From Streptomyces sp. NBC_00691 (GTDB lineage: Bacteria; Actinomycetota; Actinomycetes; Streptomycetales; Streptomycetaceae), in assembly GCF_036226665.1 (NCBI RefSeq), contig NZ_CP109007.1, forward strand, positions 6,634,001-6,698,000: DNA of 64,000 bases, written 5' to 3'. The notes beneath the pieces were generated by a model. That model was not told where the DNA came from, made no database searches, and worked only from the letters and a program-made list of their open reading frames with translations. Shown here in pieces: positions 10,299 to 34,818 of this stretch (position 1 is its first letter; each line of letters begins with the position of its first letter). The position numbers were made by a program, and so were the translations under genes.

Positions 10299-10715
10299 GC
10301 TCGGGGCCGGAGGTCCGCTCGGCACCCCGTGTGCCGGCGCCCTCACCGAGCGTCGCTCCGGCGAATCTTCACATGGTGCGAGTGGAGGGGACCCCTCCCC
10401 TTGTGCCGTTCATCGGCCTTCCGGCCCCGCCCCCGTCGATTGAGGGGGCTATGTCCCCTTGCGTTCCGGCGGGGTCACGGAGGGCCGATTTCTGTTACTC
10501 GATCCTGCGGAGAACCTGTGACGATCCCCTGGCGATCTGTCAAATAGATCGAAACGCACCCCGATCCGGTGATGAATTCGTGTGCCACGGCACGTCAACT
10601 CGGTTGGCCGGGAAACCCGTTCGCGTGCTTACATCTGCACATCGCGGCCGCCGTCGGAACGGTGCTTGATTCCGGCCGGGTAAAAACATTCACATGAATT
10701 GAAGGGTGCGCACAC
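10299..10715. other. 417-bp non-coding upstream region of the peptide gene
   Basis: I see no convincing gene here. The region holds several small palindromes: GGAGGGG-A-CCCCTCC (10384-10398), GCCCCC-N9-GGGGGC (10429-10449) and CGATCT-N7-AGATCG (10533-10551). It is more AT-rich towards its right end (10660-10700) than the surrounding DNA. It presumably contains the promoter and control sites of the NHLM peptide operon, but no promoter hexamers are clear enough to call. The ribosome-binding site GAAGGG (10701-10706) lies 9 nt before the peptide ATG. Confidence 0.5.
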
Positions 10716-10934
10716 ATGCGTAACGACATCGAGACCCGTGAGATCGCCGACGCCGAGCTGGACGCCGTTTCCGGCGGCCTCGCCATCTCCGGTGGCCTCG
10801 CCGGCGCCGTGGTCGGCGACGTCAGCACCGTCCTCGGCACCGTGACCTCGCTCCAGACCGTCCAGGGCGTGCAGGCCCTGCCGGGCGTCGTCACGGGCCT
10901 CGCCGGTGTCAACGTCGGTATCGCCGGTCTCTGA
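10716..10934 (+). CDS. Double-glycine leader precursor peptide of NHLM export system
   Basis: A 72-residue peptide with a GAAGGG ribosome-binding site 9 nt upstream. Residues 1-21 look like a C39-peptidase leader: acidic, then AELDAVSGG with the cleavage point expected after Gly21. The predicted 51-residue core has no Cys, Lys, Arg, His or aromatic residue, one Asp, and is built of Gly, Val, Ala, Leu, Thr and Ser; many Val residues are evenly spaced. A second Gly-Gly is at 26-27. No LanM, radical SAM, cyclodehydratase or similar maturase is encoded nearby, so the product is probably exported unmodified. HlyD, C39-ABC and second ABC genes follow, the exact NHLM exporter set. Role unknown: bacteriocin, signal or surface-assembling peptide. 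Confidence 0.85.
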   Translation: MRNDIETREIADAELDAVSGGLAISGGLAGAVVGDVSTVLGTVTSLQTVQGVQALPGVVTGLAGVNVGIAGL

Positions 10935-10943
10935 GCGGCATAT

Positions 10944-10983
10944 CCGTGAACCCCGGAACGCTTTCCCGTTCCGGGGTTCACGG
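10944..10983 (+). terminator. 17-bp perfect hairpin between precursor and exporter genes
   Basis: The arms 10944-10960 and 10967-10983 are perfectly complementary over 17 bp around a 6-nt loop (ctttcc). It starts 9 bp after the precursor stop. Such a stem should stop most transcripts, or protect the 3' end of the short precursor mRNA, so far more precursor than exporter would be made. There is no T-run, as is usual in Streptomyces. Confidence 0.8.
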
Positions 10984-11063
10984 CTGCCCTTCCCGCCCCT
11001 GCGGGCGGGATTTCCGCCGGTCAATTCGGCAGCCCGTCAAGAATGCAGTCGAAGGAAGAGTCC

Positions 11064-11870
11064 GTGCAGTTCCGCCAGAAGGCGCTTTCCAAGCTGCAAT
11101 CGCCCGAAGAACTCGACCTGCCGGTACGCTTCGCGCGCCCGCAGGGCCGGCTCGTGCTCGCCGTCACCGTCGTCGTGATGGCCGCAGCGACGTTCTGGTC
11201 ATTCACCGGATCCGTGTCACCCAAGGTCAGCGCACCCGGAATTCTCACCCGTGCCGAAGGCAGCTACCTCCTGCAGAGCCCGTTCGCGGGACAGGTCACC
11301 GCCGTCCACGCCGAGGAAGGCCGGCAGGTGGCACCGGGCGCACCCCTCCTCACGGTCCGCACGCCCCAGGGAGACCGGGACGTCCGCGCCGTCGAAGGAG
11401 GCCGGGTGACGACCCTCCTCGCCAAGACCGGTCTCGTCGTCACCACCGGCGCCGACGTGGCGACCGTGGAACGCGTCGAGAACCCGGACGACCCGCTGGT
11501 GGCCATGCTCTACGTGCCCGGCGACAGCGGCGCGGCGATCCCCGTCGGCGCCCAGGTCGACCTCGGCGTCCAGTCCGCGCCCCAGCAGCGGTTCGGCGTG
11601 CTCCGCGGCCGGGTCGAGGCCGTCGGCCGCGCCCCGCAGACAGCGGCGCAGATCACCGGCTTCCTCGGCGACAGCGGACTCGCCGCACGGTTCGCCCGGG
11701 ACGGCGACCCCCTCGCGGTGCTCGTCCGGCTGGAGCGCTCCGCCGCGACCCCGTCCGGCTACCGGTGGTCCTCGGCCGACGGGCCCCCCTACGCCGTCGA
11801 CTCCACGACGCCCGTCACCGGAACCGTCCATCTCACCGCGCAACGCCCCGTCGACTGGCTCCTCCCATGA
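11064..11870 (+). CDS. NHLM system secretion protein (HlyD-like membrane fusion protein)
   Basis: A 268-residue adaptor with a short cytoplasmic start (MQFRQKALSKLQSPEELD, typical of NHLM HlyD proteins), one transmembrane helix at about residues 30-47, and a biotinyl/lipoyl-like beta domain (SPFAGQVTAVHAEEGRQVAPGAPLLTV, residues about 72-98, described in parts) split by a coil. It should link the ABC exporter to the outside of the membrane. GTG 11064 is chosen because GAAGGAAG lies 5 nt upstream; ATG 11043, in the same frame, would add 7 residues that do not fit the family. Its stop overlaps a decoy ATG (ATGA at 11867-11870). Confidence 0.87.
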   Translation: MQFRQKALSKLQSPEELDLPVRFARPQGRLVLAVTVVVMAAATFWSFTGSVSPKVSAPGILTRAEGSYLLQSPFAGQVTAVHAEEGRQVAPGAPLLTVRTPQGDRDVRAVEGGRVTTLLAKTGLVVTTGADVATVERVENPDDPLVAMLYVPGDSGAAIPVGAQVDLGVQSAPQQRFGVLRGRVEAVGRAPQTAAQITGFLGDSGLAARFARDGDPLAVLVRLERSAATPSGYRWSSADGPPYAVDSTTPVTGTVHLTAQRPVDWLLP

Positions 11871-11938
11871 GCGCGACGCCCGACACGACCCTCCCGCCCG
11901 ATTGGCCGCTCCCGTGACCGCGACGCCCGACACGACCC
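11853..11938 (+). repeat. Tandem duplication (47-bp period) of a start-codon region
   Basis: Bases 11853-11891 and 11900-11938 are near-identical copies 47 bp apart; the last 30 bases differ at two positions. The first copy carries ATGA (ATG 11867) overlapping the HlyD stop. The second carries GTGA (GTG 11914), the start of the C39-ABC gene. Because 47 is not a multiple of three, the first ATG opens a 16-codon frame that ends at TGA 11915-11917, inside the second start. This looks like a duplicated, translationally coupled start. Confidence 0.8.
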
Positions 11939-14220
11939 GGACCCCCCAGCTCCCACCCGCCGGGCACCGACGGGACCGCCCCGCGCCGCAGGGCGGCAAC
12001 CGGCGCCGCCGCCCCGAGCCGGCCGGCCGCAGCCCCCGGCGCCGCCGGCCCGTCCCGAAGGGCCGTACGCCCCGCTCCGTCCGCACCCCCACCGTCCTGC
12101 AGATGGAGGCCGTGGAGTGCGGCGCCGCCGCCCTCGCCATGGTGCTCGGCCACTACGGCCGGTTCGTCGCCCTGGAGGAGCTCCGCATCGCCTGCGGCGT
12201 CTCCCGCGACGGCTCCCGCGCCAGCAACCTCCTCAAAGCGGCCCGCAGTTACGGCCTCAAGGCCAAGGGCATGCAGATGGACCTGGCCGCACTCGCCGGG
12301 GTGGGGCCGCCGGCCATCCTCTTCTGGGAGTTCAACCACTACGTCGTCTACGAGGGCATCGGCCGCCGCCTGGGCCGCCGCGGCGTCCACATCAACGACC
12401 CGGCCAAGGGCCGGCGCTTCGTGCCCATGGACGAGTTCGACACCAGCTTCACCGGCGTGGTCCTCACCTTCGAGCCCGGCGAGGGCTTCCGCCGCACCGG
12501 TCGGAAGCCCGGCGTCATGGGCGCCATGCCCGCCCGGCTGCGGGGCACCTCGGGCACCCTCCTCGCCGCCGTGCTCGCGAGCCTCCTCCTCGTCGTGGTC
12601 GGCGCGGCGATACCCGCGCTGAGCCGTACGTACATCGACATGTTCCTGATCGGCGAGCAGACCTCGCTCCTCGGCGTGCTCTTCGCTTCGATGGCGGCGG
12701 CCCTGCTGCTCACGGCGGTGCTCACCCTCCTCCAGCAGTCCAACCTGCTGCGCGGCCGCATCATCTCCTCCACGCTCGGCAGCGCCCGCTTCCTGCGGCA
12801 TCTGCTGCGCCTTCCCGTCACCTTCTTCTCCCAGCGCAACCCCGCCGATCTGGTCCAGCGACTGCAGTCCAACGACGCGGTCGCCGAGACGCTGGCGCGG
12901 GACCTCGCCGCCGCGGGCGTGGACGCGGTGGTCGTGGTCCTCTACGCGGTGCTGCTCTGGACGTACGACCCGCAGCTGACGGTCGTCGGCATCGGCATCG
13001 CGCTGCTCAACGTGGTGGCCATGCGGATCGTGATCCATGTGAGGGCCACCGACACCCAGAAGCTCCGGGCCGAGAACGCCCGGCTGACCAACACCTCGTA
13101 CAGCGGTCTCCAGCTCATCGAGACGATGAAGGCCACCGGCGGGGAGGACGGCTTCTTCCGCCGCTGGGCGGGCCAGCACGCCGTCACCCTCGACGTGCGG
13201 CAGCGGCTCGGCGTGCCCAGCATGTGGCTGGCGATCGTCGCGCCGACGCTCGCCGCGCTCAACAGCGCGCTGATCCTGATGATCGGCGGCCTGCGCGCGG
13301 TGGAGGGACACCTCTCGGTCGGCCTGCTCGTCGCCTTCCAGGCCCTCATCACCAGCTTCACCACGCCGATCACCCGCCTCAACGGCGTGGCCGGCCGCAT
13401 CCAGGACTTCGCGGCCGACGTCGCCCGGCTCAAGGACGTCGAGAACTTCCCCGTCGACCCGGTCTACGCGCGGCGCGAGCCGCCCGCCGCCACCCGCCGC
13501 CTCAAGGGCCAGGTGGTCCTCGACGGCATCACCTTCGGCTACAGCCCGCTGGACGCCCCGCTCCTGAAGGACTTCTCGCTCTCGGTCGGCCCCGGGCAGC
13601 AGGTCGCGCTCGTCGGCGGCTCCGGCAGCGGCAAGTCCACCGTCTCGCGGCTGATCTCCGGGCTGTACGCCCCCTGGGAGGGAACCATCCGCATCGACGG
13701 CATGCGGCTGGAGGACATCCCGCGCGGCGCGCTCGCCGCCTCCGTCTCCTTCGTCGACCAGGACGTCTTCCTCTTCGAGGGCACCGTCCGCGACAACGTC
13801 GCCCTCTGGGACCCCTCCCTTCCCGACGAGGCCGTCGTGGCGGCCCTCGAGGACGCCGCCGTGTACGAGGTCGTCGCGCGCCGCCCCGGTGGCATCCACA
13901 GCCGGGTCGAGCAGGACGGCCGCAACTTCTCCGGCGGCCAGCGCCAACGCCTGGAGATCGCACGGGCCTTGGTCCGGCGTCCCAGCGTCATGGTCCTCGA
14001 CGAGGTGACCAGCGCCCTGGACGCGGCGACCGAGCGCCTCGTCATCGACAACCTGCGGCGCCGGGGCTGCGCCTGCGTGGTCATCGCCCACCGGCTGAGC
14101 ACCGTCCGTGACAGCGACGAGATCCTCGTCCTGGAGCGCGGCACCGTCGTCGAGCGCGGCCGCCACGAGCATCTGCTCGCGGCGCGGGGCGCGTACGCCG
14201 AACTGGTCAAGGAGCACTGA
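11914..14220 (+). CDS. NHLM ABC transporter with C39 peptidase domain (peptidase/permease/ATPase)
   Basis: A 768-residue exporter that should cut the leader after Gly-Gly and pump the peptide out. After a basic, proline-rich N-terminus of about 60 residues comes the C39 peptidase: TVLQMEAVECGAAALAM with catalytic Cys69, FNHYVVYEG with His142 and INDPAKG with Asp162. Six transmembrane helices follow (residues about 210-480). The ATPase domain has Walker A GGSGSGKST (near 570), signature FSGGQRQ (near 672) and Walker B VMVLDEVTSALD (near 693). All catalytic residues are present. The GTG start overlaps the stop of a 16-codon coupled frame; TTG 11902 is an unlikely alternative. Confidence 0.92.
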   Translation: MTATPDTTRTPQLPPAGHRRDRPAPQGGNRRRRPEPAGRSPRRRRPVPKGRTPRSVRTPTVLQMEAVECGAAALAMVLGHYGRFVALEELRIACGVSRDGSRASNLLKAARSYGLKAKGMQMDLAALAGVGPPAILFWEFNHYVVYEGIGRRLGRRGVHINDPAKGRRFVPMDEFDTSFTGVVLTFEPGEGFRRTGRKPGVMGAMPARLRGTSGTLLAAVLASLLLVVVGAAIPALSRTYIDMFLIGEQTSLLGVLFASMAAALLLTAVLTLLQQSNLLRGRIISSTLGSARFLRHLLRLPVTFFSQRNPADLVQRLQSNDAVAETLARDLAAAGVDAVVVVLYAVLLWTYDPQLTVVGIGIALLNVVAMRIVIHVRATDTQKLRAENARLTNTSYSGLQLIETMKATGGEDGFFRRWAGQHAVTLDVRQRLGVPSMWLAIVAPTLAALNSALILMIGGLRAVEGHLSVGLLVAFQALITSFTTPITRLNGVAGRIQDFAADVARLKDVENFPVDPVYARREPPAATRRLKGQVVLDGITFGYSPLDAPLLKDFSLSVGPGQQVALVGGSGSGKSTVSRLISGLYAPWEGTIRIDGMRLEDIPRGALAASVSFVDQDVFLFEGTVRDNVALWDPSLPDEAVVAALEDAAVYEVVARRPGGIHSRVEQDGRNFSGGQRQRLEIARALVRRPSVMVLDEVTSALDAATERLVIDNLRRRGCACVVIAHRLSTVRDSDEILVLERGTVVERGRHEHLLAARGAYAELVKEH

Positions 14221-14221
14221 G

Positions 14222-17086
14222 GTGACGTCCCCCCACCCCGCGCCCGTCGCCGTGGACCCGGTCGTGGCCGCCCTGGGCGGTCTCGGCACGTCCCTGGACT
14301 GCACGGGCCTGCGCAGCCTGTCCCTGGAGGGGCCGCTCGTGCTGTGGCTCGTCGTCGAGGGAGAGCTCGACCTGTTCGCGATCGACGCGGCGCAGGAGGG
14401 CCACTGGCACTTCCTGGGCCGCCTCGCACCGGGCACGCTGCTGCTCGGCCCGGCCGAGGGCCCCGGCCACACCCTGATCGGCCGCCCCCTGCAGGGCTGC
14501 CGGCTGCGCCGCGTCGAACTGCGCGAGCTGCTGCCGTACGGCCCCGGGGCCCACGGGCCCGGGGGGTACGGGCACGAGGAGTACGGCGCCGCCGAGGTGA
14601 CGTTGAGCCCTCTGGAGAACGCCTTCGTGCTCGGCATCGGGCGCGGTCTGCGCGTCCTGTACCAGGCGCCGCTGGAGAGCCGGGACGCCGCGGGACCGGG
14701 TGCGGCCGACGACGACGTCCTGTGGATGCAGATCACCCCGGGCAGCGTCCGGTACGGCGCCGTGTACGAGGGGTACGAGGAGTACGACACCGCGGCCGCG
14801 CTCCTCGTCGACGGGGCGATGTGGCAGGGCATGGTCGACCAGCAGTACCGGCTGCTCTACGCCCTGGACGACTGGATCGAACAGGCCGAGCGCGCCCACG
14901 AGGACCGTACGGCGGCCGGCATCGAGGCCGGTGAGGCCGCCCGTACCCAGGCCGACCAGGCGCTGCTCGCCTCCATCGGCCGCCCCGGCGGCCGGTCGCG
15001 CGGGGCGTCCGTGCGCGGCGGGAGCGCCGACGCGGCCTTCGCCGTGTGCCGGCTGGTCGCCCGCGAGGCGGGCATCACCCTGTCCGAGCCGGTCGGGTCC
15101 GGCGCCGACGCCGGACAGACCGATCCCGTCGAGCGCATCGCGCGCGCCTCCCGGATCCGGACCCGGGGCGTCAGCCTCCACGGCCGCTGGTGGCGCGAGA
15201 ACAGCGGACCGCTGGTGGGGCGGCGGGAGGCGGACGGCACACCGGTCGCCCTGCTCTGGCGGCGCGGCGGGTACGAGGCCGTCGACCCCGCCACCGGCAC
15301 CCGGGAGCGGGTGGACGCCGACGACGAGGGCGCCTTCGAAACCGGCGCCGTCATGTTCTACCGCCCGCTGCCCGACGGGAGGCCCAGCCTGCCGCGGCTG
15401 CTCCGGTTCGGCCTGCGGGGGACCGGCGGGGACCTGCGCACCCTCTTCCTGGGCGGTCTGGTCACGGTCGTCCTGGGCGCGCTCGTCCCCATCGCGACCG
15501 GCAAGGTCCTCGGCGAGTACGTCCCCCACGCCGAGGACAGCCTCATCGTGCAGACGGCGCTCGCGCTCGTCGCGACGAGTGTCGTCTCGGCCGCCTTCAT
15601 GCTGCTGCAGAACATCGCGATCCTGCGGGTGGAGGGCCGCATCGAGGCCACGCTGCAACCGGCCGTCTGGGACCGGCTGCTGAGGCTGCCGGTGACGTTC
15701 TTCGCCGGCGGCTCCACCGGCGAGCTGGCGAGCGCCGCCATGGGCGTCAGCGCCATCCGCAGCGTGCTCTCCGGCATCGGCTCGGTCTGTCTGCAGGCGG
15801 GCACCGTGGGCACGGTGAACCTCGTCCTGCTGCTCTTCTACAGCGTGCCGCTGGCCCTGGCCGCGCTCGCCATGCTGCTCGTCATCGCCGCGCTCTTCCT
15901 GGGGCTCGGGCTGTGGCAGCTGCGGTACCAGCGCCGGCTGCTCACGCTCGGCAACAAGCTCAACAACCAGGCGTTCCAGACCCTGCGGGGGCTGCCCAAG
16001 CTGCGTGTCGCCGCCGCCGAGAGCTTCGCCTACGCCGCCTGGGCGCGGGAGTTCGCCCGGACCCGGGAACTCCAGCAGCGGATCGGCCGGATCAAGAACG
16101 CCCTCACCGTCCTCAACGCGGTCTGCCCGCCGCTGTGCATGCTGGTGATGTTCATGCTGCTCGCGGGACCGGCGCGGGGCAGCATGTCCGCCGCCGAGTT
16201 CCTCACCTTCAGCACGGCCGTGACGATCCTGCTGTCCTCGGTCACCCAGCTGACCGGCGCGCTGATCTCGGCCGCCGCCGTGCAGCCGATGTTCGAGCAG
16301 ATCGGGCCGGTCCTCCGGGAGACACCCGAGGTGCGCGGCTCCAGCACGCGGCCGGGAGTGCTGAGCGGGGCGGTCGAGGCGAAGAACCTGTCCTACCGGT
16401 ACACCGAGGACGGTCCGCTCGTCCTGGACGACGTGTCGGTCCAGGTGCGGCCCGGCGAGTTCGTCGCGATCGTCGGGGCCAGCGGCTGCGGCAAGTCGAC
16501 CCTGCTCCGTCTGCTGATCGGCTTCGACCGGCCGGTCACGGGCAGCGTCCTGTACGACGGTCAGGATCTGGCGGCGCTCGACCGGGCGGCCGTACGCCGG
16601 CAGTGCGGCGTCGTCCTGCAGAACGCGCAGCCGTTCTCGGGCTCGATCCTCGACTGCATCCGCGGGGCCGAGCCGTACGCGCCGGAGGAGGCCTGGGAGG
16701 CGGCCGCCATGGCCGGTCTGGCCGAGGACATCAAGGCCATGCCCATGGGCATGCACACCATGCTGTCCGACGGCGGCGGTACCGTCTCCGGCGGCCAGCG
16801 CCAGCGGCTCATGATCGCCCAGGCCCTCATCCGCAAGCCGCGCGTCCTCTTCCTGGACGAGGCCACCAGCGCCCTGGACAACGAGGCGCAGCGCGTCGTC
16901 ATCGAGTCCACGCGCGCGCTGCGCGCCACGCGCGTCGTGATCGCCCACCGGCTGTCCACGATCATGGACGCCGACCGGGTGATCGTCATGGCGGACGGAC
17001 GGGTCGCCCAGCAGGGACCACCGGCCGAACTGCTCGCCGAGACGAGCGGTCCGTTCCACGCGCTCGTACGCCGCCAGCTCGGCTGA
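14222..17086 (+). CDS. NHLM ABC transporter, second ATP-binding/permease protein
   Basis: A 954-residue protein beginning at GTG 14222, one base after the C39-ABC stop. It has no peptidase domain. Residues about 1-330 form an N-terminal extension; the first part (SLEGPLVLWLVVEGELDLFAI, cited in pieces) reads like a cupin or cyclic-nucleotide-like barrel, as in the second NHLM transporter family. Transmembrane helices lie at about 400-700. The ATPase has Walker A GASGCGKST (near 755), signature VSGGQRQ (near 855) and Walker B VLFLDEATSALD (near 877). It probably pairs with the C39 transporter. What the N-terminal region senses or holds is unknown. Confidence 0.9.
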   Translation: MTSPHPAPVAVDPVVAALGGLGTSLDCTGLRSLSLEGPLVLWLVVEGELDLFAIDAAQEGHWHFLGRLAPGTLLLGPAEGPGHTLIGRPLQGCRLRRVELRELLPYGPGAHGPGGYGHEEYGAAEVTLSPLENAFVLGIGRGLRVLYQAPLESRDAAGPGAADDDVLWMQITPGSVRYGAVYEGYEEYDTAAALLVDGAMWQGMVDQQYRLLYALDDWIEQAERAHEDRTAAGIEAGEAARTQADQALLASIGRPGGRSRGASVRGGSADAAFAVCRLVAREAGITLSEPVGSGADAGQTDPVERIARASRIRTRGVSLHGRWWRENSGPLVGRREADGTPVALLWRRGGYEAVDPATGTRERVDADDEGAFETGAVMFYRPLPDGRPSLPRLLRFGLRGTGGDLRTLFLGGLVTVVLGALVPIATGKVLGEYVPHAEDSLIVQTALALVATSVVSAAFMLLQNIAILRVEGRIEATLQPAVWDRLLRLPVTFFAGGSTGELASAAMGVSAIRSVLSGIGSVCLQAGTVGTVNLVLLLFYSVPLALAALAMLLVIAALFLGLGLWQLRYQRRLLTLGNKLNNQAFQTLRGLPKLRVAAAESFAYAAWAREFARTRELQQRIGRIKNALTVLNAVCPPLCMLVMFMLLAGPARGSMSAAEFLTFSTAVTILLSSVTQLTGALISAAAVQPMFEQIGPVLRETPEVRGSSTRPGVLSGAVEAKNLSYRYTEDGPLVLDDVSVQVRPGEFVAIVGASGCGKSTLLRLLIGFDRPVTGSVLYDGQDLAALDRAAVRRQCGVVLQNAQPFSGSILDCIRGAEPYAPEEAWEAAAMAGLAEDIKAMPMGMHTMLSDGGGTVSGGQRQRLMIAQALIRKPRVLFLDEATSALDNEAQRVVIESTRALRATRVVIAHRLSTIMDADRVIVMADGRVAQQGPPAELLAETSGPFHALVRRQLG

Positions 17087-17252
17087 CCGGCGCCCGCGCG
17101 GATAGGTGGAGAGGGCATATTTCGGAATCCGAGCCTCCCGGACGGAAACGCCGGAATGCCTCGACGGAAGGGCTTTCGATCAGGGAAGCTGTGCTCAACA
17201 GGCCTGCATATAGGCGCAGTTGATTGAGCTTCGTATCACTTCGGGGGAGACG

Positions 17253-17807
17253 ATGAAGAGTTCCGCACACCGTTGGTCGGCACGCGCGGCGAGCGCGGCG
17301 GCCGCGGCGTTACTGATAGCCGGCGGTACGGCCGGGGTCACGTTCGCAGCCGAGACCGACCGCTCGGCCGAGGGCATCGTGGCGTACGACCCGCCGGTCA
17401 ACAGCACCGCGAACTTCGCCGTGGTCGCGACCACGCACCCCGACACCGTGGGCTGCAACGGCTACAACGTGACCGGCACGGGAACCGCCAGCGGCAAGCC
17501 CACCACCGGCGGGACGTGGACGCAGACCGAGGTGGTGTGTACGGCGACCATCCCCGGCAAGTACGACATCAAGGGGACCGCGACCATCACGGAGAGCGAC
17601 GGCGACCAGCTCACCCTCACGTACCAGCTCACCGCGCCGCTCACCGCGGACACCCTGGTCTACCCGACCGGCACGTTCCAGATCACCGGAGGAACCGGCA
17701 ACTTCGCGTTCGCGACCGGCAGCGGCAAGATGAACGCCCGGGTCAACCTGCTGGACCACGACCACGTCACCTCCAAGATGCTGGGGGACATCTTCTTCAC
17801 GGGCTGA
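17253..17807 (+). CDS. Secreted all-beta protein of unknown function, with a TTA codon
   Basis: A 184-residue protein preceded by GGGGGAGA (17242-17249). The N-terminus is a Sec signal peptide: MKSSAHRWSARAAS, an Ala-rich core, then cleavage near TFAAE (about residue 32). The mature part is rich in Thr/Gly with two cysteines (TVGCNGYN and TEVVCTAT) that could form one disulphide. It ends with a YPTGTFQITGGTGNFAFATG-like stretch, reminiscent of allene-oxide-cyclase/dirigent barrels; this is only a resemblance. Codon 20 is TTA (17310-17312), in frame, so translation would depend on the bldA tRNA in Streptomyces. It follows the NHLM transporter genes by 166 bp and may belong to that system. Confidence 0.82.
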   Translation: MKSSAHRWSARAASAAAAALLIAGGTAGVTFAAETDRSAEGIVAYDPPVNSTANFAVVATTHPDTVGCNGYNVTGTGTASGKPTTGGTWTQTEVVCTATIPGKYDIKGTATITESDGDQLTLTYQLTAPLTADTLVYPTGTFQITGGTGNFAFATGSGKMNARVNLLDHDHVTSKMLGDIFFTG

Positions 17808-17927: not shown

Positions 17928-19610
17928 ATGAAGAGCACGATGCAGGACCGTGAGCTGCTCGTCCGTGACCTCCTCGCCCACGGCCGACGCGTCTACGCGG
18001 ACAGCCGGGTGATCCGATGCGCCGACGCGCGGGACGAGCGGTCCTCGCAGACCTTCGCCGACATCGCCGACCAGGCCGAACGACTCGCGGCCGCACTGGC
18101 CGGGCTGGGTGTGCGGATCGGCGAGCGGGTCGCCACGCTCGCCTGGAACACTCCCGAACACCTGGTGGCCTATCTCGCCGTACCGAGCATGGGCGCCGTC
18201 CTCCACACGCTCAACCTCCGCCTGCACCCCGACCAGTTGGGCTACATCGTCGAGCACGCCGAGGACGCCGTCCTCCTCGTCGACTCGACCCTCCAGGAGA
18301 TGCTCACCCCCCTGCGGGACCGGCTCGGCAGCGTACGCCACGTGGTCGTCATCGGCGGAGCGCCGGAGGCCGACCTGCCCGGACACATCGCCGTGCACCG
18401 CTGGGACGACCTCCTCGCGGCCGAACGCCCCGGCTACGTCTGGCCCGACCTGGACGAGCGGGAGGCGGCCGCGCTCTGCTACACCACGGGCACCACGGGG
18501 GACCCCAAGGGCGTCGCCTACAGCCACCGTTCCATCACCCTGCACACCCTCGGCGTCTCGGGCGGTTCCGGTTTCGCGATGCACGACGGCGACCGCGTCC
18601 TGCCGATCGTGCCGATGTTCCACGCCAACGCCTGGGGCTGGCCGTACTCCGCCTGGCTGGCCGGCTCCGACCTCATCATGAACGGCCGGCAGCTGCACAC
18701 CCCGGACCTGGCCCGCATCATCAACGAGGAGCGGCCCACCGCGGTGGCCGCGATCTGCACGATCTGGAACAGCCTGGTCCACCACGGCGAGCGGCACCCG
18801 CTGGACCTGAGCGGCGTACGGCTCGCGGGCTGCGGCGGCGCGACCCCGCCCCGCGCCCTGCTGCAGAAGCTCAAGGACCGCTACGGGGTCCGTCTGACAC
18901 AGGGCTGGGGACTCACCGAGACCAGCCCCCTCGCCACCTTCGCGGTCCCCCCGTACGGCACCCCCGACGAGGAGGAGGTCGGCTGGCTGGCGAAGAGCGG
19001 CCGGGTCATGCCCTACGTCGACGTACGGCTGATCGCCGAGGACGGCACCGAACAGCCCTGGGACGGCACCTCGGTGGGCGAACTGGAGCTGCGCGGCCCC
19101 TGGGTCACCGGCTCGTACTACAACACCCCCGACTCTCCGGAGAAGTTCCACGACGGCTGGCTGCGCACCGGAGACCTGGGCGTCATCGAACCGGGCGGCT
19201 GGGTGGTGGTGAGCGACCGCCTCAAGGACGGCATCAAGAGCGGCGGCGAGTGGATCTCCACCATCGAGCTGGAGAACGCGATCATCGAGCACCCCGCGGT
19301 CCTGGAGGCCATCGTGGTCGGAGTGCCCGACCCGCGCTGGGAGGAACGCCCGCTGGCCTGCGTGTCTCTGGTGCCGGGCGCCGAGGCCGACGGGGACGAG
19401 CTGCGGGAGTTCCTGACCGGACGGGTGGCCCGCTGGTGGGTGCCGGAGCGCTGGTCGTTCGTGGACGCGGTGCCCAAGACCAGCGTCGGCAAGTACGACA
19501 AGCGGGCCGTACGGACCCAGTACGCGGACGGGGCACTGGACGTCTGGGTCCCGGGCCCGGGTGACGCCGGAGCCCAGGCGCCGACGGAGTCCGGGGCGCC
19601 CGGGGAGTGA
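17928..19610 (+). CDS. Fatty-acyl-CoA ligase (AMP-binding, AlkK/medium-chain type)
   Basis: A 560-residue adenylate-forming enzyme that activates a carboxylic acid with ATP and transfers it to CoA. Visible motifs are the P-loop YTTGTTGDPKGVAYSH (near residue 185), the substrate region GWGLTETSPL, RTGDLGVIE, RLKDGIKSGGEWIS and the catalytic lysine in KTSVGKYDKR near the C-terminus. Length fits the long/medium-chain FadD group. AAGGGG lies 7 nt before ATG 17928. A strong shared terminator separates it from the minus-strand PKS cluster. The PKS has its own KSQ loading module, so this ligase is not needed to start the chain. Confidence 0.92.
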   Translation: MKSTMQDRELLVRDLLAHGRRVYADSRVIRCADARDERSSQTFADIADQAERLAAALAGLGVRIGERVATLAWNTPEHLVAYLAVPSMGAVLHTLNLRLHPDQLGYIVEHAEDAVLLVDSTLQEMLTPLRDRLGSVRHVVVIGGAPEADLPGHIAVHRWDDLLAAERPGYVWPDLDEREAAALCYTTGTTGDPKGVAYSHRSITLHTLGVSGGSGFAMHDGDRVLPIVPMFHANAWGWPYSAWLAGSDLIMNGRQLHTPDLARIINEERPTAVAAICTIWNSLVHHGERHPLDLSGVRLAGCGGATPPRALLQKLKDRYGVRLTQGWGLTETSPLATFAVPPYGTPDEEEVGWLAKSGRVMPYVDVRLIAEDGTEQPWDGTSVGELELRGPWVTGSYYNTPDSPEKFHDGWLRTGDLGVIEPGGWVVVSDRLKDGIKSGGEWISTIELENAIIEHPAVLEAIVVGVPDPRWEERPLACVSLVPGAEADGDELREFLTGRVARWWVPERWSFVDAVPKTSVGKYDKRAVRTQYADGALDVWVPGPGDAGAQAPTESGAPGE

Positions 19611-19671
19611 GGGGCGGAGCGCCCCCCGGGATTCAACGGCTGAGTCCCCCCGGGGAGTGAACGACGAACGA

Positions 19672-19711
19672 CGCCCCGGACGGTCCTGGAACACCAGGAC
19701 CGTCCGGGGCG
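19672..19711. terminator. 18-bp bidirectional terminator between ligase gene and PKS cluster
   Basis: The arms 19672-19689 and 19694-19711 are perfectly complementary over 18 bp with an AACA tetraloop. It lies between two convergent genes and marks the downstream edge of the minus-strand PKS-NRPS cluster. Confidence 0.88.
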
Positions 19712-19740
19712 CCGCTCCCGTTCCGGTGGCCGCGTGCCGC

Positions 19741-20175
19741 TCAGGCCGCCAGTCGGCCCGCCGTCTCGGCCAGCAGCTCCCGCTGCTGGCCGGCGTCGAG
19801 GCCCAGCTCCCGGACCAGCCGGAGCGTCAGCACCAGCCGGGCCTGGATCGTCGTCTCGGGGTCAGGGTGCCCGCCGTCGGGCGCCGCGCCCTCGTCGAGC
19901 CCGGCGGCGACCAGGCCCTCGAGGAACGCCGGGTCGAAGTCCTCCCCGCCCGCGTCCAGCGAGCCGAGGACCTCCGCGACGTAACCGCTGATCTCGCGCG
20001 GCGACGCGCCCCGCGGGAAGCGGCGGCGGGCGGCGATCCCGAAGGCGGTGCCGACCGCCTGCCCGTAGCGCGGGTCGGTGGGGTCGAGGGCGGCCGACTT
20101 CTGGGCGAACCCGATGAAGTCGAACGCCAGCAGCGCCCCCAGCACGTCGAGTTCGGTGGTGGTGGCACTGGTCAT
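19741..20175 (-). CDS. Small protein of unknown function, coupled to the monooxygenase
   Basis: A 144-residue, mainly helical and acidic protein, starting at ATG 20175, which overlaps the last 4 bases of the monooxygenase gene (20172-20175), so the two are translated together. It starts MTSATTTELDVLGALLAFDFIGFA and ends in a helical, leucine-rich LLAETAGRLAA. It has no cysteine, signal peptide or transmembrane segment, and I do not recognise a family. Its coupling to the flavin monooxygenase suggests a partner, for example a stability subunit, or a small pathway protein. Confidence 0.78.
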   Translation of the reverse strand: MTSATTTELDVLGALLAFDFIGFAQKSAALDPTDPRYGQAVGTAFGIAARRRFPRGASPREISGYVAEVLGSLDAGGEDFDPAFLEGLVAAGLDEGAAPDGGHPDPETTIQARLVLTLRLVRELGLDAGQQRELLAETAGRLAA

Positions 20176-21308
20176 GACGGGCGGCCTTCTGTCGTGGACG
20201 GAGTGGTGGTGGTGTCCTTGCCCCGGGCGGCGGCGACGAGCGCCGTGGCGACGTGCTCGGCGTCGCGGCCGACGAAGCCGATCAGTGCCGAGCCGCGGGT
20301 ACGCATCCGGTACAGCCCCAGGTAGTAGCTGCCGGGCACGGCCCCCGTGCCCTCGGTGTGCCGCGGCTGCCCGTCGGCGTCGAGCATCTCCGGGTCGAGC
20401 CAGCTCCAGTCGGTGCGGAAGCCGGTCGCCCAGATCACCGTGGACGGCTTGACGCGCTCGCCGTCCGCGACGAGGAGTTCGGCGCCGTCGGCCGCGGTGA
20501 TCCGGCCCACGGTCCGGATCCCGCCCGCCGCGACCAGGCCGGGCACCCGGTCGCCGACCACCGGGTCGGGCGCCTGCATGCTCACGGGCAGGCGCATCAC
20601 CCCGAGGACGCTCATCCACCAGAACATGTCCCGGCCGACGACCGTCTGCGGCAGGGGCGGTGAGACCGCCTCGCTGCAACTGAGCACCACCTGGTGGGTG
20701 GCGGACAGCTCGGCGGCGATCTGCCGCCCGGAGTTGCCGTCGCCGACGACCACCACCGTCCCCGGAGCCACCTGCGCGGGGCTCCGGTACTCGGTGGTGT
20801 GCAGCGTGGGCACGTCCGGACTCAGCGCCGCGGCGAACTCCGGAAGCCGGGGGATCCCGAACGCCCCGGTCGCGATCACGACCTGACCGGCCCGGCAGTC
20901 GCCGCGCGTCGTGCTCAGCAGATAGCCGTCGCCGTCCCTGCGTACCGACAGCACCCGGTGGTCCGTCAGCACCGGCAGGTCGAACCGTTCCGCGTAGTCC
21001 CGCAGATACGCCACCACCTCGTCCTTGCCGGGGTAGTGCCGGCCGTCGCCGGGGAACGGCAGGCCCGGCAGCCCGGAGAACTGCGCGGACGTGAACAGCG
21101 TCAGCGACTCCCAGCGCCGCTCCCACGTCTCGCCGACCTCGCCGCCCGCGTCGAGCAGCACGCACTCCACGCCGGCCTGCCGCAGGTAGTACCCGACCGC
21201 GAGCCCGGACTGGCCCGCTCCGACGACGGCGACCGGCACGGTGGCCGGAAGCGCGGTCGTCCGCGCACCGTCCTGCCGCCGTATCGGGTCGGCCTGATCA
21301 ATTCGCAT
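20172..21308 (-). CDS. FAD/NADPH-dependent flavin monooxygenase (FMO/CzcO-like)
   Basis: A 378-residue oxygenase. The FAD-binding Rossmann motif is VVGAGQSGLAVGYYL (residues 28-42), the second, NADPH-binding motif is VVVGDGNSGRQIA (about 183-195), and the ATGF motif typical of FMO-like enzymes is WATGFRTDWSWL near residue 285. Such enzymes oxidise N or S atoms, insert oxygen next to ketones (Baeyer-Villiger) or oxidise imines. ATG 21308 is preceded by GAGG at a good distance; an in-frame start 39 bp further up has none. It follows the PKS-NRPS gene beyond a strong hairpin and likely modifies the product; the sulphur or the beta-ketone are natural targets. Confidence 0.88.
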   Translation of the reverse strand: MRIDQADPIRRQDGARTTALPATVPVAVVGAGQSGLAVGYYLRQAGVECVLLDAGGEVGETWERRWESLTLFTSAQFSGLPGLPFPGDGRHYPGKDEVVAYLRDYAERFDLPVLTDHRVLSVRRDGDGYLLSTTRGDCRAGQVVIATGAFGIPRLPEFAAALSPDVPTLHTTEYRSPAQVAPGTVVVVGDGNSGRQIAAELSATHQVVLSCSEAVSPPLPQTVVGRDMFWWMSVLGVMRLPVSMQAPDPVVGDRVPGLVAAGGIRTVGRITAADGAELLVADGERVKPSTVIWATGFRTDWSWLDPEMLDADGQPRHTEGTGAVPGSYYLGLYRMRTRGSALIGFVGRDAEHVATALVAAARGKDTTTTPSTTEGRPS

Positions 21309-21371
21309 TCCGATCGTCCTCACTTCTTGGACCTGGACCCGTGGCACCCGAAGGCCCGGTCCGGGGTGGAT

Positions 21372-21402
21372 CGGCCGGGCCGCCGGAGGGGCGGCCCGGC
21401 CG
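21372..21402 (-). terminator. Hairpin just after the NRPS-PKS stop codon
   Basis: A perfect 13-bp GC stem (21372-21384 with 21390-21402) and a 5-nt loop lie between the giant PKS-NRPS gene and the monooxygenase gene. Transcription of the tailoring genes is thus either partial read-through or from a separate promoter. Confidence 0.7.
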
Positions 21403-21409
21403 GGTCGGT

Positions 21410-24400
21410 TCAGTGGGCGCCGAGCGCCCGGCTCAGCTCGTCCGCCAGAACCCGCAGCCGCTCACCACGCATCACCGTGTAGTGGTCGCCGGGAACGTCC
21501 ACGAGGGTGGCGTCGCCGGGGAAGTACTCCATCCAGCGCCGCGCTGTCTCGACGGTCGCGCCGCCGTCCGCCGCCCGCAGCGACAGCACCCGGCCGGCGA
21601 AGGCGCTGGGCGCGTACCGCAGCAGGGCACGGTAGTTGCTCTGGAAGCGGCCGACGATGGAACTCAGCGTGTCGAGGTCGATGTCCTCGGACAGCGCCCC
21701 CGCCGCGCGCGCCTCGGCGTGCAGCACCTCCACCGGCGGACGGCCGTCGAACGCCTCGGCCGGCAGCTGCCACTCGACCCCGGCGAGGCCCGCCAGATCC
21801 CGGGCGAACCAGGACAGCAGCACCTCGTCGGAGACCGGCTCGCCCCCGGCCGGGCCGGGCCGCTCCATCAGGTCGACCACGGCGAGCAGCTCCACCTCGG
21901 CCCCCGCCGCGGTCAGCTGGGCCGCCATCTCCAGCGCGATCACACCGCCCATGGACCAGCCGCCGACCCGGTACGGGCCCTCGGGCAGCGCCTCACGGAC
22001 CGCCGCGACGTAGTGGGCGGCCATCTCCTCGACGCTCGGCAGCTCCGTGTCCGGCAACTGCAGCGCGTAGAACGGCTGGTCGTGACCGAGGAGTTCGGCG
22101 AGTTCCGCGTAACAGAGCACGTCACCGCCGACCGGGTGGACGAACACCAGCGGAGTCCGCCAGCCCGTGGTGCGGACCGGCACGAGAGCCCTGCGGCCGT
22201 CCTCGACGCTGCCGGTCTCCCGGACCGCCCGGGCGAGCAGTTCGATGGTCGGCCGGGCGAACAGGCTGGACAGTGGCAGGCTGCGACCCAGGCCGCGGGC
22301 GATCCTGGCCATCAGCCGCACCGCGAGCAGCGAGTCCCCTCCGAGGTCGAAGAAGCTCGCGGTCACCCCGATCTCGGCGACCCCGAAGAACTCCGCCCAG
22401 ATCTCCGCGAGCCGGCGTTCCACCTCGTCGCGGGGGGCGACGAAGCCGGCGCCCTCGACGGCGACCTCGTCGGGTGCGGGCAGCGCAGCCCGGTTGACCT
22501 TGCCGTTGTCGCTGAGCGGCAGCTCGTCGAGGACGAGGACGCGCTGCGGGACCAGGTGCTGCGGGACCACCTTGCGCAGCGAGTCGGTGATCCGCTGCTC
22601 GGTGTCGTCGCGCCCCTCGTCGAGGACGACGTACGCGATCAGCCGCTTCGGACCGTGCTGCTCGCCCGCCGCGACGACCGCGGCGGCCCGTACGCCCTCG
22701 CACTGGGTGAGAGCGGCCTCCACCTCGCCCAGTTCGATGCGGTAGCCCTGGACCTTGACCTGGGAGTCCTGGCGGCCGAGGAACTCGATGGTGCCGTCCG
22801 GGAGGAAGCGCCCCAGGTCCCCCGTGCGGTAGAGCCGCTCACCGGTGACCGGGTGGTGCAGGAACGCGGCGTCCGTCTTGACCTCGTCGTTCAGATAGCC
22901 GCGGGCCAGGCCGACCCCGGCGATGTAGAGGTCGCCGGGCACCCACACGGGACACGGCCGCATCGCGCCGTCCAGCACATGGAAGCGCTGGTTACGCATC
23001 GCCTTGCCGTAGGGGATGCTCACGCAGTCCTCGGTGACCTCCCCGATGGGGTGCAGGATCGACCAGATCGACGCCTCGGTGGCGCCGCCGAGGCTCCACA
23101 GCTCGGCATCCTCCAGGAGCAGCCGGATCCGGCCCGGCAGGGTCACCGGGATCCAGTCCCCGCTCATCATGACCAGCCGCACCGGCAGCCCGGTGAGCCG
23201 GTTCGCGAGGGCGTGCTCGGTGAACATCTCCATGAGCGCGGGCACGCTGTTCCAGATCGTCACCCCGTGCTCGGTGACGAGCTCCGCCCAGCGGGCGGGC
23301 TCACGGTGCGCCGACGGCTCGGGCAGCACCAGGGCGCCGCCGGCGGAGAGAAGACCGAAGACGTCGTAGACCGACAGGTCGAAGTGCATCGCGGACAGTC
23401 CGAGGGCCCGGTCCGCCGCGGTGACGCGATAGCGCTCGTTGACGTCGACGATCGTGTTCAGGGCCGCGCCGTGCTCGATCATCACACCCTTGGGCAGCCC
23501 GGTGGATCCCGAAGTGAAGATCACATAGGCGAGGTTGGTGGGCTTGGCTCCGGACGGGCCGAGCGGCTCCGGCTCGCCGGCCTCCTCCCGGCTCGCGCCG
23601 TCACCCCGCTCGCCGGATCCCTCGTCGGCCCGCACCACGGTCCTGGCCACGCCCTGCGGCCAGTCGGCGATGCCGTCCACCCACGGCTGGGTGACCACCC
23701 GGCTGATCCCGGCGCTGTCGAGCAGCACATGCAGCCGCTCGGCGGGCACCCGCGCGTCGATCGGCACGTACGCCGCACCCGCCCGCAGGATGCCGAGGGC
23801 CGCGACGACCTGCTCCCAGCCCTTGTCCATGACGATGCCGACCAGGTCGCCCGGTCCCGCCCCCAGGGCGCGCAACCGGTGACCCACCTGGTGGGACCTG
23901 CGCTCCAGATCCGCGTACGACAGGGTCAGCGAGCCCGTGATGACCGCGGGCGCGTCCGGCGTCTCCGCCGCCCGGGCCAGCACGGCGTCGTGCAGCAGCC
24001 CGTCGGGCACCGGCCCGTCGGTGGCGTTGGCCTCGGCCCGTACCTCCAGATCGGCGACGGGCGCGAGCGCCGGCCTCGGCCGCTGCCAGGCCGCCGGGTC
24101 CCGGGACAGCTCGCGCAGCGTCCGCTGGTAGGCCGCGAACATCGCGTCGACGCAGCCCGCCGGGAACAGCTCCTCGATCACGTCCCAGTTCAGCAGGAGC
24201 TCGCCGGCCTCCTCGACCGCCTGGTGGTCCAGCCACACCTGCGGGGTGCGGACCGAGCTGCTCACCTGGCGGCCGTTCTCACCGATGCCGGCGAGGTGCC
24301 GCACGACCCCACCGGGCTCGCCGTCCTGCCGGTCGGCCATGTTCACCAGGCTGGTGAAGACGACCGGCGCGGCGGCCCGGACCGAGGCGCCGCGCGCCCG

Positions 24401-27400
24401 GTTCAGTTCCCGGAGCACCTGCACACCGCTGACCTGGCTGTGCTCCATGTCGCTCCACAGCCGGCTCTGGACGGCGGAGGCGCGGACGGCGAACGAATCG
24501 GTCGCCGAGTCGCGGATCTCCAGCATCAGGGTCGTGGAGAACTGACCGATGACGTCCCCGACCTGCGGGTGCAGCGGCAGCCGGTTGAAGTAGAGCAGGT
24601 TCAGGGAGAAGTCGGGAGTGGCACTCCACTCCGCGATGACCTGCGCGTACGCGGTGCACAGGGCCGCCGACGGGCTGACCCCGGCCGCCGCCGCGTGCTG
24701 CTTGAACCGGTCCCAGTCCTCCCTGGCCAGGGTCGCGCCGCGGTGGTTGAACACCGGCCGCTCCAGGCTCGACGGACTGACGGCCAGCGGAAGCTGGGGC
24801 GCGGGCGGCAGGGTGTCGAGCCGGTCGCGCCAGTAGGCGAGCGCCCGGTCGTACTCGGGCCCGGCCTCCAGCGCGCGGGCCTCCCTGACGTAGTCCCGGT
24901 AGCGCAGCCGCAGTTCGGGCAGCGTCTCACCGCGGTAGTGCGCCGCCCACTCCTTGAACAGGATCGACGTGCTGAATCCGTCGATGATCAGGGCGTCGAA
25001 GCCCGCGTGCAGCCGGATCACCCGCTCGTCGATCCGGGTCACCCGCACATCGAACAGCGGCCAGCACGTGGTGTCGAAGACCTGGTGCCGCATCTCCTCG
25101 TGCACGGCGACCAGTTCGGCCTCGCGCTCGGCCGGTTCCAGGACGGAGGCGTCGGTCTCCCGGATCACGTACGCGGGGACATCACGCCGGATGCGCTGCT
25201 CGCCGTCGGCGGTGAAGACCGCCCGCAGCATGTCGTGGCGCTCGATCATCGCCCGGAAGGACGCGCCGAGCCGGTCCAGGTCCACGTTCTCCAGGTCGAT
25301 CTCGATCTGGAAGTACGTCGAGGTGTTGCCGAGTTCGAACGCGTCACCGCGGCCCACGAGATAGGCCTGCTGGAGGTCGGTCAGACCGAACGGCTCGTAC
25401 CGCTCGGAGTCGTCCCCGACCACGACGGTCCCGCCGTCGGCCGCCGCGGGCTCCGCCTCCCCGCCCTCGTGGCTCTCCCCTTCGGAACCGAGAGCCGCCA
25501 GGACGTCGCCGGCGATGTCCTCCGTGCTGCGGCCTTCGAGGAACGCCGCCATCGGCAGCAGGACGTCGAACTCCTTGTTCAGCGTCGTCCGGATCTTCAT
25601 CGCGATCAGCGAGTCGAGACCGAGCGCCTGCAGCGACTGCCGGGCGTCGAGGCGTGCCGCCGTCGTCCCGAGGGCCCGGGCGACGGTCCGGGTCACGAAG
25701 GCCCGCGCCGCGTCGGGCACCACGGCGGACGCCGCGTCGGCTGCTTCGGCCGGAGCCGTCGTCGCGACGGCCGCCGGGGCCGCACCGAGCGGGCGCGCCT
25801 CGGGAACCGCAGCCGGGGCGCGCACGGCCGCGGATACGGGGCGCACCGCGGCCGCCGGAGCCGACTCGGCCTCCGCCGCCGACCGGGTGAGGGCCGGGAC
25901 GAACCGTACGCCGTCGGCCTCGGCCACCAGCCGCCCGTTCGCCGAGACGAGCCGGATACGAGCCCGGGTGCCGCCCTCGAACAGTTCGGCATGACATCGG
26001 AGCCCGTCCTGAGGGCCGCCGCGGTCGTAGTGGACGAAGCGTTCGAGACCGGTCGGCACGAGAGCCGGGCCGTCCGCCGGGAAGCAGGCCAGTGCGGTCT
26101 GGAACATCGCGTCGACGAGCCCCGGGTGGATCACGTACGCCTCGGACTCGCCGGGCACGGCGGACCGGATCTCGGCGGTGGCCTCGCCGCGCCCGAGCCT
26201 GATCCGCTCCACCCAGCGGGCGGCGGAACCCAGGTACAGGGCACGCTGCCACAGCAGCCGGTACAGCTCGTCACCCGTCAGCTCACGGCCCGAACCGCCC
26301 GCCGCGAGCGCCACCGTCGGCGCGGCCGCCGCGCCCGAACGGGCCAGGGCCTGCGCGTGCAGCTGCCAGCCACCGGACGGGTCCTGCGCGTAGTAGCCGA
26401 ACCGCTCGCCGTTCACCACGAGGTGAGCCGTGCGCCCGGTGCCGGCCGGCGCGAGCACCAGGTCGACGGGAAGCTCCAGGTCCTGGACGGACACTGGTCC
26501 CGGTCCGGCGAGTTCGGTGACCGCCTCGATCAGTGACTCCACGAACACACCGGCGCTGACCACCGGCCGCCCGCCGACCACGAAGTCGCCGAGGCAGGGG
26601 TGCGCCGACGGGTCGAGCGGCGGGGAGAACTGCGCCTCCGCGAGCGGCGACGACGGCAGTCGTGCACCCAGCAGGCTTGCCGACTCGGCGGCCGGCGCCA
26701 CCGGAAGGGGCGCGGCGGGCGCAGCCGAGGGGGCTTCCGGCGCGAGCCAGTAGTGCTGGCGTTGGAAGGGGTAGGTGGGGAGTTCGGTGGTGCGGGGCTG
26801 GTAGGGCTGGAGGAGGGTCGGCCAGTCGACGGTGACGCCGTGGGTCCAGGCTTCGGCGGCTGATTCGATGAAGCGTTCGAGGGTGCCGTTGTTGCGGTGG
26901 AGGGTGCCGAGGACGGCGCCGGTGTCGGCGAGGGTTTCGGTGATGCCGGAGGCGAGGACGGGGTGGGCGCTGATTTCGATGAAGACGGTGTCGGGTGTGG
27001 CGAGTTGCTGGATGACTTCGGCGAGGCGGACTTTGCTGCGGAGGTTGCGGAACCAGTAGGCGCTGTCGAGTGCGCTGGTGTCGAGGAGCCCGCCTGTGAC
27101 CGTGGAGTGGAAGGCGGTGTGTCCGGACTGTGGTGTGACGTCCCTCAGCTGGTCGGCGAGGGTGTGCTGGATTTCGTCGACGTGTGCGGAGTGGGAGGCG
27201 TAGTCGACGGGGATGCGGCGGGCCCAGATTCCGTTGGTTTCGCAGTGGGTGAGGAGTGCGTCGAGTGCTTGGGGTTGTCCGGCGACGACGGTGGAGGAGG
27301 GTCCGTTGACGGCGGCGACGGAGAGTTGTCCGGGCCAGGTGGTGAGGAGGGTTTCGGTCTGGGTTTCGGGGATGCTGAGCCAGGCCATGCCGCCGCCGCC

Positions 27401-33400: not shown

Positions 33401-34648
33401 TTCGCTGGGCTTGCCGACGTTGAGGGAGGCGGGCAGCTCGCCGTGCTGGAGGGCCATGACCATCTTGATGACGCCGCCGACGCCGGCGGCGGCCTGGGCG
33501 TGTCCGAGGTTGGACTTGAGTGAACCCAGCATGAGGGGCCGGTCGCCGTCGCGTTCGCTGCCGTAGGTGGCGAGGAGGGCTTGTGCCTCGATGGGGTCGC
33601 CGAGGACGGTGCCGGTGCCGTGGGCCTCGACCGCGTCGACGCCGGCGAAGGAGATCCCGGCGTCCTGGACGGCGGCGCGGATGACGCGTTCCTGTGCGGG
33701 GCCGCTGGGGGCGGTGAGTCCGTTGGAGGCGCCGTCCTGGTTGACGGCGGTTCCGGCGACGACGGCGAGGATCTGGTGTCCGAGCCGGCGGGCGTCGGAG
33801 AGGCGTTCGACGACGAGGACGCCGACGCCTTCGGCCCACGCCGTGCCGTCCGCGTCCGCGGAGAAGGATTTGCAGCGGCCGTCGGTCGCGAGCCCGCGCT
33901 GGCGGGAGAACTCGACGAAGATGCCGGGTGTCGACATGACCGTGACGCCGCCCGCGAGGGCGAGCGAGCACTCGCCGGACCGCAGGGCCTGCACGGCGAG
34001 GTGCAGTGCGACCAGGGACGAGGAGCAGGCGGTGTCGACGGTGAGGGCGGGGCCTTGCAGGCCCAGGGTGTAGGCCACCCGGCCCGAGGCCACGCTCGAC
34101 GTGGTGCCCGTCAGGCCGAACCCGGCGGAACCCGCCGCCGCCTCGCCCAGCCGCGGACCGTACTCCTGGGTGATCGCGCCCAGGAACACGCCCGCCGACG
34201 TGCCGTGCAGCGACCCGGGGGCGATCCCCGCCCGCTCCAGGGCCTCCCACGCCACTTCGAGGAGCAGCCGCTGCTGCGGGTCCATCGCCAGCGCCTCACG
34301 GGGAGCGATCCCGAAGAACGCGGGGTCGAACTCGGCGGCCCCGCTCAGGAATCCGCCGTCACGCACATAGGACGTGCCCGAGTGCTCCGGGTCGGGGTGG
34401 TAGAGACCCTCCAGGTCCCAGCCGCGGTCGGTGGGGAGTCCGGAGATCACATCGCGCTGCCCGGCGACGACCTGCCAGAGCGCCTCGGGGGAGTCCACCC
34501 CGCCCGGGAAGCGGCACCCCATGCCGACGATCACGATCGGATCGTTGGCACCGGCCTCCAGCTCACGGACCCGCTGACGGGACTGGTGGAGGTCGACGGT
34601 GAGGCGCTTGAGGTATTCGACGAGTTTGTCGTTGTCCGTTGTTGTCAT
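21410..34648 (-). CDS. Hybrid type I PKS-NRPS: KS-AT-DH-KR-ACP / KS-AT-dh-ACP / Cy-A(Cys)-PCP-TE
   Basis: A 4412-residue enzyme. Start ATG 34648 gives an N-terminal docking coil (residues 1-31). Module A: KS 36-460 (Cys208), AT 577-880 (YASH 767-770, methylmalonyl), DH 937-1205 (His970, Asp1134), KR 1385-1610 (LDD 1476-1478, B-type), ACP (Ser1693). Module B: KS 1755-2180 (Cys1926), AT 2292-2590 (YASH 2483-2486, methylmalonyl), a DH-like fold about 2665-2920 without the active His, no KR, ACP (Ser3013). Module C: heterocyclisation domain 3085-3525 ([25 protein letters not shown] with D3218/D3223), A domain 3553-4055, PCP (Ser4106), TE 4155-4410 (GWSMGG, Ser4232). The A-domain pocket reads D-L-Y-N-M-S-L-I-W-K, one change from the cysteine code. 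The product should leave as a thiazoline. Confidence 0.95.
26744..27779 (-). repeat. AT-coding segment nearly identical to 31892-32927 (copy 2)
   Basis: This 1036-bp stretch of module B matches the segment of module A at 31892-32927 with a constant offset of 5148 bp and only scattered substitutions, including many third-position identities. Both encode the methylmalonyl-specific AT and the linker to the following domain. Flanking DNA diverges sharply at both edges. Confidence 0.88.
31892..32927 (-). repeat. AT-coding segment nearly identical to 26744-27779 (copy 1)
   Basis: Partner of the segment at 26744-27779. The + strand here is full of GGTG, GGAG and TTGG runs, a base pattern visibly different from neighbouring PKS sequence, so the shared segment also differs in codon choice from the rest of the gene. 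Confidence 0.88.
33241..34169 (-). repeat. KS-coding segment nearly identical to 39918-40846
   Basis: About 929 bp coding for most of the KS of module A in the second PKS protein. It matches the KS of the extension module in the first PKS protein (39918-40846, offset 6677 bp) almost base for base. It starts in the linker after KS and ends abruptly near the ETYGPRL-equivalent region ([10 protein letters not shown]). Confidence 0.85.
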
Positions 34649-34818
34649 GGCGATGATGCCCCCGTAGGCGTCGTGAAGCTGTGCGTGTGCGCGGTTCCCG
34701 GGCACGGCACGCCCGCGGGACGTGCCCGGGCGTGCCGCGCGCGGCGAACAGGATGGGCGGACAGGAGTCCGGTTCCGTGCGGTGCGCGGGTGGAGTTGTG
34801 GTCGGAGTGGGGATCGGG

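Follow-up and report, generated by a model that had tools for sequence, protein, structure and literature searches.

The closest described counterpart of the locus analysed here is found in Streptomyces coelicolor, in which sco0753 encodes a 77-residue hydrophobic peptide without cysteines and lies 5′ of the sco0754–sco0756 type I secretion operon, an organization that is conserved in many Streptomyces (PMC6629963). With an activated Sco5282 kinase sco0753 is the most induced gene (over 60-fold), sco0754–sco0756 are also upregulated and the strain shows dispersed growth instead of pellets, and in the null mutant the genes are almost silent (PMC6629963). This link between Sco0753 and morphology is correlative and lies inside a broad transcriptional response. 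The authors of that study already propose a role at the hyphal surface and argue against a SapB-like lantibiotic (PMC6629963), while sco0753 has elsewhere been classed as a bacteriocin-cluster gene (PMC5733086); no knock-out phenotype for sco0753 was found in the literature searched. The exporter proteins belong to the NHLM families defined by Haft, Basu and Mitchell (2010), which are more widespread than NHLP precursors and usually serve modified peptides (PMC2887384).

The window, by which we mean the whole 64,000-nucleotide stretch of DNA analysed, comes from the 8.33 Mb genome of Streptomyces sp. NBC_00691. ORF calls place the genes for a precursor peptide, an HlyD-type adaptor, a C39-ABC exporter, a second ABC protein and a secreted protein in this co-directional order, at the coordinates claimed in an earlier note made from the DNA letters. 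The features of the locus are as follows.

10604–10635, + strand: promoter-like element TTGGCCGGGAAACCCGTTCGCGTGCTTACATC, of the TTGG-N16/17-CGTGCTTNNATC type, conserved 5′ of precursors
10716–10934, + strand: precursor peptide gene, 72 residues, ATG ORF; leader 1–21 (ELDAVSGG), core 22–72
10944–10983, + strand: hairpin with a 17 bp stem between the precursor and exporter genes; T-run absent
11043–11870, + strand: HlyD-type adaptor, 275 residues; TIGR03794 (just over the cut-off), PF13437
11902–14220, + strand: C39 peptidase-ABC exporter; TIGR03796, PF03412; start TTG at 11902 or, likelier, GTG at 11914
14222–17086, + strand: second ABC permease/ATPase; TIGR03797; N-terminal extension of roughly 270 residues
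17253–17807, + strand: secreted protein, 184 residues; lineage-specific neighbour, outside the system

The architecture and conservation of the cassette are firm, and it is a well-supported member of a known, functionally uncharacterized system; it is of a kind already described in S. coelicolor and is not new. On sequence features, with a small Cys-free hydrophobic double-glycine peptide encoded directly 5′ of HlyD, C39-ABC and second ABC genes, it is classed as a Sco0753-type system. We regard sco0753 as the putative counterpart of the window precursor on the basis of gene order, size and family neighbours and not of direct sequence comparison; size, order and neighbours also suggest that it probably falls into another sequence clade, with an MNSTPQVET leader and a 48-residue core. 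Adjoining the cassette in the window (17928–34705) are an acyl-CoA ligase gene and then a very long minus-strand ORF of NRPS-like appearance.

The three exporter proteins are encoded together and all score above the curated cut-offs, which makes the trio an NHLM export system, as previously proposed. The C39-ABC protein (1007.9 bits against 853.3 for TIGR03796) and the second ABC protein (881.9 against 709.4 for TIGR03797) pass, and HlyD only just (158.2 against 156.2 for TIGR03794). HlyD, at 275 residues, is ∼146 residues shorter than the 421-position model; its best stretch aligns with the C-terminal part of the model and much of the middle is missing, a shortening that would be expected in a Gram-positive cell, which has no outer membrane to span. 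The C39-ABC protein is related over its whole length to the PCAT1 transporter of solved structure (4ry2). All of its C39 residues Gln67, Cys73, His146 and Asp166 (ORF numbering) are present, and 106 of 109 relatives retain the pattern; of the other three, two are sequences with masked N runs and one is a divergent exporter. Relatives of the second ABC protein carry Walker A, SGGQ and DEA motifs. The N-terminal extension of this protein (14222–15030, ∼270 residues) lies outside the TIGR03797 model and has no Pfam match. In one genome the NHLM exporter is divergent, with 49% identity in C39-ABC, and no precursor of the Sco0753-type family was found beside it.

The window precursor (MRNDIETREIADAELDAVSGG/LAISGG...GIAGL, with the slash at the double-glycine site) has 72 residues and a 51-residue core, and its translation confirms that residues 22–72 contain no Cys, Lys, Arg, His, Phe, Trp or Tyr. 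It stays below the cut-off of every precursor family: the double-glycine leader model TIGR01847 gives 13.3 bits against a cut-off of 15.7, with the motif clear by eye; the 21-residue leader has no NCBIfam match of the NHLP or Nif11 type (TIGR03793, TIGR03798). Of the 199 Streptomyces genomes searched, 145 encode a C39-ABC exporter above the TIGR03796 cut-off, 144 contain the precursor family by profile and 51 have neither. The precursor is present in 141 of the 145 exporter-bearing genomes (Fisher p about 8e-39 over 199 genomes, uncorrected for shared ancestry), and the four exporter-only genomes have the lowest exporter scores of the list (861–944 bits). When 30 loci were retrieved through the exporter alone, a precursor with the same leader stood at the same position in 29. 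Together with the 141 of 145 genomes, this shows that the small ORF is no chance occurrence. Over the order the precursor was found in 210 of 293 genomes, nearly all of them Streptomyces, while three belong to two further genera within the family; named loci extend the range to Actinacidiphila and Streptantibioticus. Among 80 named loci the precursor lies directly 5′ of the exporter genes, in the same order, in 68, and the exporter is absent from 12 (two of them at contig ends). Streptomycetaceae bacterium MP113-05 carries two different tandem precursors ahead of one exporter. No precursor was found on plasmids.

Across 40 neighbourhoods of ∼20 kb each, the four cassette genes are the only conserved ones. 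Other neighbours, some of them named by eye and not by family search, track clades: an MFS gene, a streptogrisin-type protease, Ppx/GppA and a protease-inhibitor-like protein. Ppx/GppA genes stand 3′ of the cassette in several loci; sco0757 encodes an exopolyphosphatase. The secreted protein, which the earlier note had offered as an immunity, receptor or assembly factor, is ruled out in these roles as a lineage-specific protein with a second copy elsewhere. Homologues of near full length occur in three of the 199 genomes, the window genome included, each with an extra copy elsewhere, so that the protein is not part of the unit; two further genomes give weak, partial matches. The family of the secreted protein, of which three close relatives each carry two copies, is Cys-containing and β-rich, and the AlphaFold model of the window protein has a mean pLDDT of 38.8.

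Cores of the family are 43–62 residues long, and their C-terminal AGL and glycine pattern is conserved across species. In the 41 cores that were counted, the most abundant residues are Gly (20%), Val (20%), Leu (12%), Thr (12%) and Ala (11%), Cys, Trp and Lys are absent (the wider set has the occasional Lys), GRAVY values range from about 0.4 to 1.25 and the charge is 0 to −5, i.e. not basic; some relatives contain His or Arg, unlike the window core. GxxxG motifs number 156 against 76 expected, and in the 41 cores glycine pairs are enriched at i+3, i+4, i+7 and i+11 and depleted at i+1, i+2, i+5, i+6 and i+9. In 16 non-redundant cores (below 55% identity, with within-sequence shuffles as the control), the periodicity of Gly and of Val/Leu/Ile/Met/Phe peaks at 95–100° (z of 6.3–7.4), and no 180° (β) periodicity was found; the former is the mark of a putative amphipathic or glycine-zipper α-helix, and the lack of the latter counts against a chaplin-like β-peptide. 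The glycine and aliphatic groups of the window core point in directions ∼160° apart. An AlphaFold model of the precursor contains a helix at residues 29–53 at low confidence (mean pLDDT 54.7), which lends weak support to a helical core. Pooled dN/dS, a crude measure given the GC-rich codon bias, is ∼0.24 for leaders and 0.64–0.77 for cores, and selection on the cores appears only moderate.

Of 130 regions 5′ of precursors, 114 match the promoter-like element at nine or more of its ten fixed box positions, compared with one of 130 mononucleotide-shuffled ones. The site at 10604–10635 is the sole exact match in the window genome, and a reversed control element matched once over the 199 genomes. 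Among 48 matches examined, a few of them sites seen twice, most lie 5′ of a double-glycine peptide gene and the rest are scattered. In three genomes a site with shorter spacing, TTGG-N14-CGTGCTTCCATC, stands 112–122 bp 5′ of an ECF-sigma-like gene, which may point to the regulator or be a coincidence. A stem of at least 10 bp follows the precursor in 85% of 128 loci, compared with 5% of dinucleotide shuffles. Paired positions vary with pairing kept, a count that leans that way since stems were pre-chosen for pairing. The hairpin is not a textbook intrinsic terminator, with few T residues after the stem, and a match to Rfam mir-3204 (27.5 bits against a gathering threshold of 90) is attributed to chance. 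Lacking a T-run, it could act in processing or attenuation and so favour precursor over exporter transcripts.

Precursors also occur away from exporters. A second peptide class (MNSAPQVETVEISDAELDNVSGG/LNPH..., beginning MNSAPQ) has the leader common to the linked precursors and, in loci found by the element, the same element with a spacing one base less; at ten such loci, the majority of which carry the element, no exporter, maturase or conserved neighbour stands beside the peptide. Actinacidiphila soli has the cassette and two unlinked precursors. In the window genome a leader search returned one precursor only and no unlinked ones. The simplest reading of these sequences is that one exporter would serve several substrates. 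Solitary precursors of the S. noursei type (MSNTSGIETREIADDDLDNVAGG), seen at four loci, have a related leader without the element.

We propose, with a probability of roughly one half, that the cassette makes an unmodified, C39-processed, helix-forming peptide with a structural or morphogenic role at the hyphal surface or envelope, and not an antibiotic. The promoter-like element would drive the precursor gene, the S. coelicolor genes being dependent on the Sco5282/5283 two-component system, and the hairpin may hold the amount of precursor above that of the exporter. In the first ABC protein, the C39 domain would bind the ETREIADAELDAVSGG leader and cleave after the double glycine, whereupon the two ABC proteins and the shortened HlyD would export the 51-residue core. 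Processing and export are strongly inferred, with C39 processing nearly certain from what is known of the family, and the core is probably left without modification. Since it is hydrophobic and almost uncharged, with a predicted helix bearing glycine on one face and aliphatic residues on the other, the core probably self-associates or binds membranes and has its site of action at the hyphal surface or envelope; for that site of function the case is a moderate one, at about even odds.

The earlier note had left the choice between a bacteriocin and a surface peptide. The surface alternative has gained from the S. coelicolor work (PMC6629963) and from the helical glycine pattern, and the bacteriocin has been weakened. 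As an unmodified class II bacteriocin, glycine-rich and resembling class IIa microcins, the core would insert into the membrane of competitors; exporter and leader resemble those of bacteriocins, the core is hydrophobic and rich in GxxxG, and a conserved leader with a faster-changing core, at the dN/dS values above, is also expected of a bacteriocin. However, the 40 neighbourhoods hold no fifth conserved gene that could confer immunity, which makes an antibiotic role less likely, the core is not cationic and keeps a fixed pattern common to species, and the system is widespread in the genus instead of patchy. We therefore consider a bacteriocin doubtful. An extracellular signal peptide, matured and secreted by Streptomyces in the manner of competence or quorum systems, would likewise use a C39-ABC exporter, and species-specific core variation and two-component control in S. 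coelicolor would suit such a pheromone, but no receptor or kinase gene is conserved nearby in the 40 neighbourhoods, hydrophobic cores of 43–62 residues are long for a signal and the C-terminal AGL and glycine pattern is kept across species, so that this reading is improbable. Least probable is a RiPP whose modification, such as Ser/Thr dehydration, is carried out in trans by an enzyme encoded elsewhere: modified peptides are the usual NHLM cargo (PMC2887384), the cores contain Thr and Ser and the window genome has three LanC-like ORFs and one YcaO far from the cassette, but no maturase was found near the window cassette (as claimed before), in about 100 related loci or beside nine unlinked precursors examined, and the cores offer no Cys for lanthionine or thiazole, which makes modification in trans unlikely.

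A broader form of the surface-peptide proposal, which we put forward only tentatively, is a genus-wide regulon in which unmodified glycine-zipper helical peptides from linked and unlinked precursors would be exported by the C39/NHLM system and remodel the hyphal surface; it builds on the occurrence of unlinked precursors in many species and on the leader and promoter element that they have in common with the linked one. If true, it would place next to chaplins and SapB a third kind of surface peptide in Streptomyces, one that is helical and not amyloid. The cassette occurs in about 70% of the sampled Streptomyces, its product is uncharacterized in the literature found, and there is a link to pellet morphology, a property of importance in industrial fermentation. 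One likely reason why the product is uncharacterized is technical, as trypsin finds no Lys or Arg to cut at in the window core and UV detection no aromatic residue.

Compared with the NHLM/NHLP systems of Haft and coworkers, the window cluster uses the same three exporter families, but its 21-residue leader is short and resembles the class II type whereas theirs are of ∼83 (NHLP) or ∼70 (Nif11) residues (PMC2887384), and it has no TOMM or LanM enzyme. With class II bacteriocins and class IIa microcins it shares a probably unmodified double-glycine, glycine-rich hydrophobic peptide and a C39-ABC exporter; the Sco0753-type systems differ from these in having no immunity gene, a genus-wide distribution and slightly acidic instead of basic cores. 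SapB is a Cys-bearing lanthipeptide, and chaplins are Sec-exported and β-forming. The likeness to both is an analogy of working only, as hydrophobic peptides of the Streptomyces hyphal surface: Sco0753-type peptides show helical periodicity and would be exported by C39-ABC, the 41 cores contain no Cys and the clusters no lanthionine-forming enzyme, and there is no chaplin match in Pfam and a double-glycine leader in place of a Sec signal. The nearest likeness is to S. coelicolor sco0753–sco0756, where the gene for a Cys-free hydrophobic peptide likewise precedes those for HlyD and two ABC proteins in identical order; Ppx/GppA and protease-inhibitor-like genes adjoin related cassettes, and the neighbours of the window cassette differ. 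To that description we add the precursor–exporter co-occurrence, the helical periodicity, the promoter-like element, the hairpin and the unlinked second peptide class, of which the helix pattern, the element and the sister precursors turn the published remark on Sco0753 into specific tests.
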